64,000 bases of DNA from Maricaulis sp. (GTDB lineage: Bacteria > Pseudomonadota > Alphaproteobacteria > Caulobacterales > Maricaulaceae): NCBI RefSeq assembly GCF_030149235.1, contig NZ_JASBRW010000059.1, positions 1 to 64,000 on the forward strand, written 5' to 3'. Under the pieces are notes generated by a model, which was not told where the DNA came from, searched no databases, and saw nothing but the letters and a program-made list of their open reading frames with translations. How positions within the stretch are numbered: position 1 is the first letter of the stretch; each line of letters starts with the position of its first letter. Positions 40,331 through 57,107 of this stretch are shown here, one piece after another. A program made the translations under genes and the position numbers.

Positions 40331-40345
40331 TTAATGTCCTTTTAA
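40331..40345 (+). promoter_or_regulatory. CtrA-type box (TTAA-N7-TTAA) upstream of the DUF2145 module
   Basis: TTAATGTCCTTTTAAC is a perfect match to the full CtrA site, including the trailing C of the TTAAC half-site. It ends 28 bp before the ATG at 40374. CtrA is the cell-cycle master regulator in this order; activation or repression cannot be decided from position alone. Confidence 0.72.
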
Positions 40346-53072: not shown

Positions 53073-54593
53073 ATGACCGATCTCATTCTTGTTCTCGGCG
53101 ATCAGCTTTCCCCCGACCTCGCCAGCCTGGCAGCCAGCTCACCACAGCGCGCCGAGATCGTCATGGCGGAGGTCGCAGCCGAGGCCCGCTATGTCCGCCA
53201 TCACAAGAAGAAAATCGCCTTCACCTTCGCGGCCATGCGCCATTTCGCCGAGGAGCTGCGCGCTTCCGGCTGGACGGTTCACAATACCCGCTATGACCCG
53301 ACATCCCCCTGCCCGGATCTGGCCTCCGCGGTTTCGGAGCGGCTGGAGCAAACGCGCTATGACCGGCTGATCGTGACCGAGCCGGGCGAGTGGCGGTTGA
53401 AACAGGAGATGGACACCTGGCAGGCGCGCTTCGGTGTGGACGTGTTGATCTGCGAGGACACTCGCTTCCTCGCCTCACATGGTGAGTTCGAGCGCTGGGC
53501 GGACGGCCGCAAACAGCTCCGCATGGAGTATTTCTATCGCGAGATGCGGCGGCGAACCGGGCTCCTGATGGAGGGCGACAAGCCCGCTGGCGGCAAGTGG
53601 AATTACGACGCCGAGAATCGCAAACCCGCTGTCGGCGACCTCTTCATGCCACAAGCCCCGCGCTATCGGCCTGATGCCCTCACCCGCGAAGTGCTTGATC
53701 TCGTCGGCACCCATTTCGCCGATCATATCGGCCAGCTCGAGCCGTTTGTGCTGGCGGTCACCCGGAAGGACGCAGAGGCCGCGCGCGATCATTTCATCGC
53801 CCGAGCCCTGCCGGCCTTCGGTGATTACCAGGACGCGATGCTGTCAGGCGAGGACTTCCTCTATCACTCCCTGCTGTCGACCTATCTCAATGCCGGCCTG
53901 CTGGATCCACTCGATCTGTGCAAGCGGGCCGAGGCAGAATATCGGGCCGGGCGGGCACCGCTGAACGCGGTCGAGGGCTATATCCGCCAGATCATCGGCT
54001 GGCGCGAATATGTGCGCGGCATCTATTGGCGCGAGGGCCCGGACTATGTCCGCCGCAATGCGCTCGGTGCCGATCGGCCCCTGCCGGAGTTTTACTGGAC
54101 CGGCGATACGGACATGGCCTGCATGTCGGCCGCCATCGGCCAGACGCTTGAGCACGGCTATGCCCACCACATCCAGCGTTTGATGGTCACCGGCACTTTC
54201 GCCCTGCTCGCCGGTGTCGATCCGTTCGAACTGCACGAGTGGTATCTGGCGGTCTACACCGACGCCTATGAATGGGTCGAAGCGCCCAATGTGATCGGCA
54301 TGTCGCAATTTGCCGATGGCGGCCTGCTCGGATCGAAACCCTACGCGGCCAGCGGTGCCTATATTGACCGCATGTCGGATTATTGCGGCTCTTGCGGTTA
54401 CAAGGTGAAGGACAAGACCGGCCCGCAATCCTGCCCGTTCAATTCGCTCTACTGGGATTTTCTTGATCGCAATCAGGGAGCCTTGCGCGGCAACCCCCGG
54501 CTGGGCCCGGTCTATCGCAACTGGGACCGGATGAGCGAAGACAAGCAGGACGCCTATCGGGCCCGCGCCCGCGACGTGCTGGCCAAGCTCTAG
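53073..54593 (+). CDS. Iron-sulfur bacterial cryptochrome/photolyase (PhrB type)
   Basis: 506 residues, the usual length. [17 protein letters not shown] at the N-terminus and [20 protein letters not shown] are the signature of the FeS-BCP (PhrB/CryB) class, whose Agrobacterium member repairs (6-4) photoproducts. The C-terminal cysteines for the 4Fe-4S cluster are visible in [19 protein letters not shown] together with an earlier MACMSA. It uses FAD and light to repair DNA or to sense light. It is divergent from the SDR gene and overlaps DUF2256 by 4 bp tail to tail. Confidence 0.94.
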
Positions 54594-54730
54594 CGGCTGC
54601 GGCGGCAGCGCTCGGAGCAGTATTTCACCTCGTCCCAGACCTTCTCCCACTTCTTGCGCCACTCGAACGGCAGGCCGCAGGTGGCACAGGTTTTGGTCGG
54701 CTTGGGTTTGCGTGAAGCGTGGCGGGCCAT
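54590..54730 (-). CDS. DUF2256 family small zinc-ribbon-like protein
   Basis: 46 residues, below the ORF-track cutoff. The translation starts [20 protein letters not shown] and ends with [12 protein letters not shown]. Four cysteines (CATC and CSERC) suggest a single zinc site. The conserved [18 protein letters not shown] is the DUF2256 signature. These proteins are usually encoded beside photolyase/cryptochrome genes, as here: its start is 3 bp after the stop of the second photolyase, and its end overlaps the first. Function unknown. Confidence 0.9.
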
Positions 54731-54733
54731 GGC

Positions 54734-56254
54734 TTAAAGATCCAGCTGGAGCTGATTGTCGGGTTTGGCTTGCGGCGGCGGATTGGAGCGCCGGCGCATG
54801 GGCGCCCGGCTGCCATGGCGGGCGAGCACCCGGCGCGAGGCATCCTTGAAGCCGGGCTGTTTGCGCGCCGCGAAGACCCGTTCGCGCGCCTCCCGCGCGG
54901 CTTGCATCACATCCACGACCGGTCGGGGGTAGCGCCCCTCCAGCGCGGCCTCAAAGCCCGGCCACCGCCAGACTTCATGAATGAAGTCCGCCGGGACCGG
55001 TTCCAGCTCGGGCAGCCAGCGCCGGATGAAGCGGACATCGGGGTCCTGATCCAGCCCCTGTTTCACCGGGTTGTAGATGCGGATCGAATTTACTCCCGTC
55101 GTGCCTGACTGCATTTGCACCTGGGACCAGTGAATGCCCGGCTCGTAATCCGTGAACAATCGCGCCAGACGCTCACCGGTCGCCTGCCAGGGCTGCCAGA
55201 GATGATAGCTGGCAAAGGAGACCAGCATGGCGCGCATGCGGAAATTCATCCACCCGGTCTGGTTCAGGCACCGCATGCAGGCATCGATGAAAGGCACGCC
55301 GGTCTCGCCTCTCTCCCAGGCGTCAAGGCGCTCCGGGTCGGCGCTGCGCGGCCGCAACCCCTCGAGGCCGGGGTGCATGTCCCGCCATTCAATTTCCGGC
55401 TCATCCTCAAGTTTTTGCATGAAATGATCGCGCCAATGCAGGCGCGACATGAAGGAGCGCATCGCCCCCGACCAGCCGCCGCGCTGTCCCGCTGTCTCGA
55501 TTTCCGCCTGCCGTGCCCAGCCGGCCTGGGCTACCTCGCGCATTGAAAGCGAGCCCAGCGCCAGGTAGGGCGAGATGCGCGAGCAGTGCCGGGCGGCCGC
55601 ATCTGGCGCAGACATCGCCTTTCGGTAAGGCGCCCCGCGCTCGGTCAGGAAACTGTTGAGAGCGTTGAGTCCCGCCGCGCGGCCGCCGGTCTGGCGTTGC
55701 GGACAAGCATCGGCTTTAAGCCCAAGCTGTTCTGCATCCGGGATTGGATCGGCCGGCCAATCAACGCCGCAAAACGCCGGTGCGCCGGACACCGGCCCGG
55801 CGCGGTCCTTGTCCCAGCGCGCGGCCCAGCCATTGCGCGACTTCATGCGGCGGATGACACCGCCCGGCGGCACTTCCAGCCACTCCACCCCTGCTTCACG
55901 CGCCAGCGCGCCAACCGCAATATCGCGCTGGTAAGTCCACTGATTGCCGGTCTCCTCATGCGAGAGCAGCCGGCAGTCCGGATAAGCCGCAAACAGGGCC
56001 GACAATACGTCCCTCGCCTCGCCGGTCTTGACCACGAGCGGCGCACCGAGCGCACACAGCTGCTGGCTCAACTCGTCCAGCGTCTCCAGGAGGAAGTCAT
56101 AATGGCGGCCGGATGTATCCGGCAGTGCCCAATAGTCCGGCTCGATGATGTAAACCGGAAGCACCGGGCCTGCCTCGGCCGCGAGGCGCAGAGGCGCGTG
56201 ATCCTCGACACGAAGGTCCCGTTTGAACCAGACGATTTGGGTTTGAGCCGCCAT
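54734..56254 (-). CDS. Class I-type photolyase/cryptochrome (deoxyribodipyrimidine photolyase family)
   Basis: 506 residues. QIVWFKRDLRVEDHAPL at the N-terminus is the photolyase alpha/beta domain. The FAD-binding C-terminal domain has WMNFRMRAMLVSFASYHL, LARLFTDYEPGIHWSQVQMQ and YNPVKQGLDQDPDVRFIRRW. It lacks the iron-sulfur cysteines of the neighbour, so the two should have different lesion or signalling roles. A Lys/Arg-Pro-rich tail follows. It is followed at 3 bp by DUF2256. Confidence 0.93.
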   Translation of the reverse strand: MAAQTQIVWFKRDLRVEDHAPLRLAAEAGPVLPVYIIEPDYWALPDTSGRHYDFLLETLDELSQQLCALGAPLVVKTGEARDVLSALFAAYPDCRLLSHEETGNQWTYQRDIAVGALAREAGVEWLEVPPGGVIRRMKSRNGWAARWDKDRAGPVSGAPAFCGVDWPADPIPDAEQLGLKADACPQRQTGGRAAGLNALNSFLTERGAPYRKAMSAPDAAARHCSRISPYLALGSLSMREVAQAGWARQAEIETAGQRGGWSGAMRSFMSRLHWRDHFMQKLEDEPEIEWRDMHPGLEGLRPRSADPERLDAWERGETGVPFIDACMRCLNQTGWMNFRMRAMLVSFASYHLWQPWQATGERLARLFTDYEPGIHWSQVQMQSGTTGVNSIRIYNPVKQGLDQDPDVRFIRRWLPELEPVPADFIHEVWRWPGFEAALEGRYPRPVVDVMQAAREARERVFAARKQPGFKDASRRVLARHGSRAPMRRRSNPPPQAKPDNQLQLDL

Positions 56255-56286: not shown

Positions 56287-56637
56287 CTAGTTTTCGATCA
56301 CAGCGCCGTCAGGCGTGACACCGGCCCTTTCCAGTTCACCGCCCAGCTTACCGGCGAGAAAGAATGCAAATATGCGGTAGTCCGCGATCAGCGACCATAG
56401 CGGATAGGTAAAGGTGGCCGGCTTGTTGCGCTCGACGAAGGCGTGACTGACCCAGGCAAAGAAGTAACCGGAAACCGGCACCGCCAGCAGAGCCCACCAG
56501 GTCTGGGTCGCCAGGGCCCAGAGCACGACGCCGATGGCCAGGGTCGAACCGACATAGTGCCAGGACCGGGTCGCCGGGCGCGCATGCTCGCGCAGATAGA
56601 AGGGCCAAAATTCGGCAAAACTGGTGTGTTCGCGCAT
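56287..56637 (-). CDS. DUF962 (Mpo1-like) membrane protein
   Basis: 116 residues with GGGAGGTGAG upstream of the ATG. FAEFWPFYLREHARPATRSW, WHYVGSTLAIG and ADYRIFAFFLAG match DUF962; yeast Mpo1 of this family is an Fe-dependent dioxygenase that shortens 2-hydroxy fatty acids, and the conserved His residues (WHYVG, SHAFVERN) are present. It is the first gene of a run DUF962-photolyase-DUF2256. Whether it acts on lipids here is unproven. Confidence 0.9.
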   Translation of the reverse strand: MREHTSFAEFWPFYLREHARPATRSWHYVGSTLAIGVVLWALATQTWWALLAVPVSGYFFAWVSHAFVERNKPATFTYPLWSLIADYRIFAFFLAGKLGGELERAGVTPDGAVIEN

Positions 56638-56807: not shown

Positions 56808-56822
56808 TTAACCCCTCTTTAA
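56808..56822 (+). promoter_or_regulatory. CtrA-type box (TTAA-N7-TTAA) upstream of a candidate small RNA
   Basis: TTAACCCCTCTTTAA is a perfect full CtrA site, in a 394-bp stretch without a protein gene. A hairpin and a strong terminator follow within 100 bp on the plus strand, so the site fits the -35 region of a short transcript. Confidence 0.65.
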
Positions 56823-56844
56823 GGGTTCCAGCCGAAGTCTGTAC

Positions 56845-56919
56845 ACGTCTTCCCGTGAAGACACCCCACCATCCACCCAATGCCTTTTCGGGAGCCTCCG
56901 TGGCTCCCGATTTTTTTTT
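56845..56919 (+). ncRNA. Candidate small RNA with rho-independent terminator
   Basis: No protein gene ends here on the plus strand, yet a textbook terminator is present. Upstream of it are a 6-bp hairpin, GTCTTC-CCGT-GAAGAC (56847-56862), and a G-free single-stranded stretch, ACACCCCACCATCCACCC, suited to pairing with purine-rich ribosome binding sites. The perfect CtrA box lies about 23-37 bp upstream of the proposed 5' end. The 5' end is approximate. I do not recognise the RNA family. Confidence 0.5.
56888..56919 (+). terminator. Rho-independent terminator of the candidate small RNA
   Basis: A 9-bp stem, TCGGGAGCC-TCCGT-GGCTCCCGA, is directly followed by nine T. It is strand-specific for the plus strand. 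The rest of 56638-57031 shows nothing beyond the CtrA box, a short hairpin and a TTGACT at 56748. Confidence 0.9.
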
Positions 56920-57031
56920 GCGCATTTCGCGGATGAGTTTTTGCAGCGAGGATGTGCATCTGACGCACATCGGTGCTTGCGCCTTTGCCGAGGGCTCTGA
57001 TATACGCCCCATCTCGCTTGAGAAACGGTAT

Positions 57032-57107
57032 TCCCCTGTAGCTCAGTTGGTAGAGCAGGTGACTGTTAATCACCGGGTCGGCGGTTCGAGCCCGTCCGGG
57101 GGAGCCA
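57032..57107 (+). tRNA. tRNA-Asn (GTT)
   Basis: A 76-base cloverleaf: acceptor TCCCCTG/CGGGGGA, D-arm GCTCAGTTGGTAGAGC, anticodon stem GGTGA/TCACC with loop CTGTTAA giving GTT at 57065-57067, T-arm GGCGG-TTCGAGC-CCGTC, discriminator G and encoded CCA. Confidence 0.98.

Follow-up and report, generated by a model that had tools for sequence, protein, structure and literature searches.

A gene for a regulatory RNA of about 72 bases lies in the 64,000-nucleotide stretch of Maricaulis sp. DNA analyzed here (the window). Conservation, covariation and promoter geometry support a free-standing, non-coding RNA whose gene is equipped with both a CtrA-type promoter and a terminator of its own, as an earlier, sequence-only reading had proposed. 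Judging from its locus and its relatives, the gene is a remote orthologue of the Caulobacter small RNA CC0196 that lies outside Rfam's present RF01519 model. Its transcription is apparently switched on through a CtrA binding site. The favored reading, held with a probability of about 0.85, is that of a trans-acting small RNA (sRNA) of this family, activated by CtrA late in the cell cycle, whose C-rich strand would act by pairing with mRNA.

A small RNA gene upstream of tRNA-Asn

The RNA gene lies in a 394-bp gap between an Mpo1-like (DUF962) gene on the opposite strand (56287..56637, minus strand; PF06127, E = 1.1e-34) and the conserved downstream neighbor tRNA-Asn(GTT) (57032..57107, plus strand). 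The gap between 56637 and 57032 is otherwise free of genes, confirming the 394 bp without a protein gene that had been described, and the CtrA box, the 6-bp hairpin and the 9-bp terminator stem followed by nine T reported there are all present on the plus strand. The CtrA box, TTAA-N7-TTAA (TTAACCCCTCTTTAA), occupies 56808..56822, with its 5' base at about -38 relative to the inferred start. It is followed by a -10 element at 56834..56839, GAAGTC, which is weak in the window copy (column consensus nAnnnT). The RNA itself, predicted from homology and fold, spans 56846..56918, with a start placed at 56845-56847.

Three parts make up the predicted transcript. A 5' hairpin of 6 bp, GUCUUC-CCGU-GAAGAC, lies at 56847..56862, and an intrinsic terminator at 56888..56919 consists of a 9-bp stem (56888-56910) with a 5-nt loop and a run of T9 (56911-56919). 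Between them, the C-rich single strand ACCCCACCAUCCACCCAAUGCCUUU (56863..56887) is a candidate seed and contains a universal core, ACCC(C)ACCAU, recognized from homologous loci and folds. This strand had been described as G-free, which holds up to 56881; one G stands at 56882. The 73-nt RNA folds with -26.0 kcal/mol (z = -5.9), and none of 200 shuffled sequences is as stable.

The genome from which the window comes has a single copy of the sRNA gene. The locus is adjoined by genes for a photolyase-related protein (DPRP; 53073-54593, plus strand), a DUF2256 protein (54590-54730, minus strand) and a DNA photolyase (54734-56254, minus strand).

Conservation and genomic context

DNA searches place the RNA in every one of the 18 genomes of the genus covered (E <= 1.4e-24), a degree of conservation that excludes a chance occurrence, and in most other genera of the family. 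A first covariance model, built from ten sequences and searched with strict filters that lose weak matches, finds the RNA in 221 of the 299 genomes and 46 of the 54 genera of the order. With a second, better model built from 33 sequences (R2), 35 of 37 rechecked genomes are positive, many of them negative with the first model. The two rechecked genomes without an RNA match, G023 and G283, come from the same family and have completeness values of 96-97%. Outside the order, six families in the sample of the class (f8, f9, f95, f120, f127 and f141) have strong matches (E < 1e-9), and most genera elsewhere in that sample have no match to the second model.

In nearly every genome, the RNA is encoded about 60-160 bp ahead of tRNA-Asn and in the same orientation, often with tRNA-Cys on the other side. 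Exceptions are L103, in which tRNA-Asn is on the opposite strand, and L101 and L112, which have no tRNA nearby. Retention of the RNA in these three contexts indicates that it is independent of the tRNA.

Relationship to Caulobacter sRNA CC0196

The copy in Caulobacter vibrioides (NZ_PJRR01000022.1) is Rfam family RF01519, 'Caulobacter sRNA CC0196', with a score of 95.2 bits. RF01519 scores fall gradually through the relatives (95, 66, 40, 35 and 29 bits); among 61 relatives, the cut-off of the model is exceeded in just two, in each case at the site found by R2. The window copy falls below the RF01519 gathering score of 35 bits, the 86 bases searched giving no match at E <= 10; in the window's own genome, RF01519 has no match at E <= 1. 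R2 matches the window, C. vibrioides and the intermediates on the same bases as RF01519. The assignment as a remote orthologue is therefore built on this same-locus chain of relatives, RF01519 being silent on the window copy.

Landt 2008 is reportedly the discovery paper of CC0196, and the literature searched yielded neither a functional study of this RNA nor a description of its wide phylogenetic range and universal CtrA promoter. From its name and the flanking gene numbers (CCNA_00197/CCNA_00196), CC0196 is probably CCNA_R0004. CCNA_R0004 is annotated as 'cell cycle regulated', with low counts and its highest value at 80 min, and its predicted targets are given as pilus, flagellum and cell division (PMC5988900). 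Its tabulated length of 133 nt (PMC6237742) is twice the approximately 68 nt predicted for the Caulobacter copy, and the two figures disagree. CCNA_R0004 does not figure among the sRNAs listed as Hfq-enriched, and this speaks against the usual kind of Hfq-dependent pairing. Another Caulobacter sRNA with a full CtrA box, CCNA_R0025 (PMC5988900), had been considered as the orthologue and was set aside when the RF01519 match pointed to CC0196.

A CtrA box at a fixed distance from the predicted start

Perfect TTAA-N7-TTAA boxes occur twice in the 64 kb of the window, against 0.03 expected. With at most one mismatch, the box is found in 71 of the 71 homologous promoters that have enough upstream sequence, 39 of them perfect. 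It begins 38-40 bases before the hairpin, and its second TTAA begins 27-29 nt before the hairpin, in every one of the 71. As a control, random 80-nt windows of the same loci reach such box quality in 2.8% of cases. The -10 columns, at box positions 27 and 31, carry A in 79% and T in 67% of 70 promoters. Since these columns fall at the expected places, transcription would start at about the first hairpin base, 56845-56847, with the 5' base of the box at about -38. The promoter geometry thus predicts a start at approximately 56846, in good agreement with the start near 56845 suggested from the sequence.

In Caulobacter, 5'-end mapping shows that where CtrA activates a promoter through a full box, the 5' base of that box sits near -35 (PMC4287350), and ctrA P2, with its box at -39, reaches peak activity at 80-100 min (PMC4287350). 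Likewise, the window copy has a full TTAA-N7-TTAA box near -35 of its predicted start, the arrangement that marks CtrA-activated promoters. CtrA binding and cell-cycle timing are presumed for this organism on these grounds. Of the 71 promoters, 14 (L021-L025, L062, L064, L073, L074, L078, L093, L111, L115 and L119) also have a CcrM site (GANTC) between the hairpin and the second half of the box, suggesting GcrA/CcrM as a further layer of control in some lineages. Five related genera in the family of the window are represented among these 14.

Apart from the box of the sRNA gene, the window has a single perfect TTAA-N7-TTAA match, at 40331-40345 (plus strand), about 30 bp upstream of an ATG (40374) that opens a short frame with a signal-peptide-like start. 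This frame is possibly another CtrA-controlled gene.

Covarying stems flank an unpaired C-rich core

Among 69 distinct sequences, 222 alignment cells carry double changes, compared with 74 for shuffled alignments and a far smaller number for slid ones, and 98.7% of cells are paired; the alignments were fitted to the covariance model and hence lean towards the structure. An earlier set of 32 sequences agrees. The 5' hairpin is nearly invariant in sequence and paired in 99.8% of cells; one family has replaced a G-C pair by A-U through a double change. The terminator stem has wholly changed in sequence between lineages with its pairing kept, showing compensatory changes in all 8 modelled pairs. 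Conservation of the hairpins in relatives, on which the sequence-only reading had staked its proposal, is thus borne out.

The core ACCC(C)ACCAU is retained in nearly all copies and is unpaired in six of six folds tested. The related string ACCCCACCAT(C/T)CACC is present in 29 of 30 loci of the first set, the remaining locus being cut by the end of a contig. Many relatives have CCC where the window copy has CCCC. The spacer from the core to the next C run differs by lineage (UCCACCC, UCACCC, UACCC, UUACCC or UUUACCC), and this variable distance between two C-rich modules makes them a poor fit to one long conserved duplex.

Proposed mechanism and search for targets

In the proposed mechanism, phosphorylated CtrA would bind the box at about -38 to -24 and activate transcription late in the cell cycle. 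RNA polymerase would start at approximately 56846 and terminate at the run of T9. Hairpin and terminator may shield the two ends of the RNA and present the C-rich strand with its ACCC(C)ACCAU core, the presumed active part. Most likely, one or more mRNAs with G-rich, GGUGGG-like sites would pair with this strand and be translated differently as a result.

The sequence-only reading had proposed that the C-rich stretch could pair with ribosome binding sites, a suggestion that gained nothing from prediction, as no tested leader beat shuffled seeds. With leaders from 17 same-genus genomes for each gene, shuffled seeds scored as low in 90/200 trials for ctrA and in 35/200 for gcrA; for flagellin leaders they were as good in 26/200, and energies for pilA leaders were no better than those of 40/200 shuffles. 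With no signal above shuffles in these leaders, ribosome-binding-site pairing stays conjectural. Control of ctrA or gcrA in the manner of the Caulobacter RNA CcnA, through CCCC-GGGG pairing, gained no support, there being no excess over shuffled seeds in the 17 genomes examined for each. Across 306 leaders taken by a crude gene caller from a 400-kb sample of one same-genus genome, and hence a partial target prediction, the mean energy of -14.6 kcal/mol did not differ significantly from that of shuffled seeds (-13.5 +/- 0.9 kcal/mol). Long perfect complements of the form GGRTGGTGGGG occur four times in the window's own genome besides the RNA itself, all inside genes and none at a translation start. 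No convincing conserved target site was predicted among the leaders tested.

In the pilA leaders of the genus, GATGGTGAGGT or GATGGTTGGGT would pair with the core but for a single mismatch, and this near-complement is missing in other genera; as a target, pilA has the standing of a lead. Separately, a G-rich hairpin, TTCAGGAGGGGTCGGGACGGATCGGCTCCTG, is highly conserved in the pilA leaders of the family, where a CtrA-type box precedes it and the start codon follows (L251-L269, L311, L314, L317 and L318). It resembles a regulatory RNA element acting in cis on the pilin mRNA.

Alternative explanations

Given its near-constant place upstream of tRNA-Asn and on the same strand, the element could instead be a CtrA-responsive leader or attenuator of this tRNA, with no independent sRNA. 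The tRNA has a promoter-like site of its own, TTGCGC-N18-TATACG, at 56977..57006 (plus strand), 3' of the sRNA terminator, and the leader explanation is rejected on that ground; a similar TTGnnn-N16..19-TA spacing is found in most loci inspected. Retention of the RNA where tRNA-Asn is inverted (L103) or no tRNA is near (L101 and L112) also speaks against it, as does the lack of any alternative antiterminator fold among the folds, leaving a leader improbable. There is next to no likelihood that the locus encodes a small protein. An open frame, GTG AAG ACA CCC, does cross the RNA in the window, but neither the frame nor its start codon is conserved, several copies have no such frame, the core undergoes one-base indels, and the changes in the stems are compensatory. 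A diverged member of the alpha-R8 family (mmgR, SisA-D; RF00519) is very improbable as well. These RNAs share the layout of a hairpin, a single-stranded C-rich core and a terminator, and relatives of the window RNA give weak RF00519 matches of 23-29 bits at the same place. However, all matches at the sRNA site are under the 41-bit cut-off, with 12.3 bits for the window, and the core motif of alpha-R8 and SisA-D, UUUCCUCCCU, is absent from the window RNA. Two Caulobacter-like genomes, moreover, each have four other loci above the cut-off, which equals the number of SisA-D, and the alpha-R8 identification is largely refuted.

The remaining question concerns the partner of the C-rich strand, which might bind a protein, as a decoy or sponge, instead of pairing with mRNA. 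Every mRNA site tested is less conserved than the ACCC(C)ACCAU core, the tested leaders never beat shuffled seeds, and the probable orthologue in Caulobacter is missing from the sRNAs listed as Hfq-enriched, all of which would suit a protein ligand. Yet no candidate protein is known, the target tests spanned few genes, and in SisA-D, conserved single-stranded C-rich cores set in a like architecture pair with mRNA (PMC12559287). A protein decoy therefore seems rather unlikely, and base pairing is considered the likelier mechanism, with a protein-binding role as the alternative.

Implications for the CtrA regulon

CtrA is the best-studied cell-cycle master regulator of the alphaproteobacteria and, to our knowledge, little is known about regulatory RNAs under its control. 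It is reasonably probable that this sRNA is an ancient riboregulator driven by CtrA, kept at one locus, with its ACCC(C)ACCAU core invariant and its CtrA box in a fixed position, in Caulobacterales and in several alphaproteobacterial families beyond that order. Retention of one locus across these groups suggests that the ancestral CtrA regulon had a post-transcriptional arm that went unnoticed outside Caulobacter. What was known is CC0196 as a functionally uncharacterized sRNA; what appears to be new, as far as the literature searched shows, is its far wider range and the universal CtrA box.

The RNA is present in model Caulobacter, is small, has a single copy in the window's genome and offers an obvious core to mutate, making a post-transcriptional role of the CtrA regulon directly testable. 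Rfam's RF01519 reaches little beyond Caulobacter and its near relatives, and a rebuilt family would annotate the RNA in hundreds of genomes.

Comparison with known small RNAs

Among Rfam families, ncS16 of Burkholderia (RF02866) scores highest on the window copy, with 21.8 bits against a cut-off of 48. Like the window RNA, ncS16 has a CACCAU-rich strand followed by a terminator; unlike it, ncS16 belongs to distant bacteria, and the likeness is likely convergent. CcnA (CCNA_R0094) of C. crescentus resembles the window RNA in being presumed CtrA-activated and non-coding and in carrying a CCCC stretch (PMC8959179). However, CcnA is 182 nt long and lies in the replication origin (PMC8959179, PMC4287350), whereas the predicted window RNA is 72 nt long and lies at tRNA-Asn; identity with CcnA was rejected on location and length. 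The window copy differs from CC0196 (RF01519) in its longer C-rich stretch (ACCCCACCAUCCACCC) and in the sequence of its terminator, and shares with it the locus upstream of tRNA-Asn, the 5' hairpin, the ACCCACCAUCAC core, a terminator and the CtrA box.
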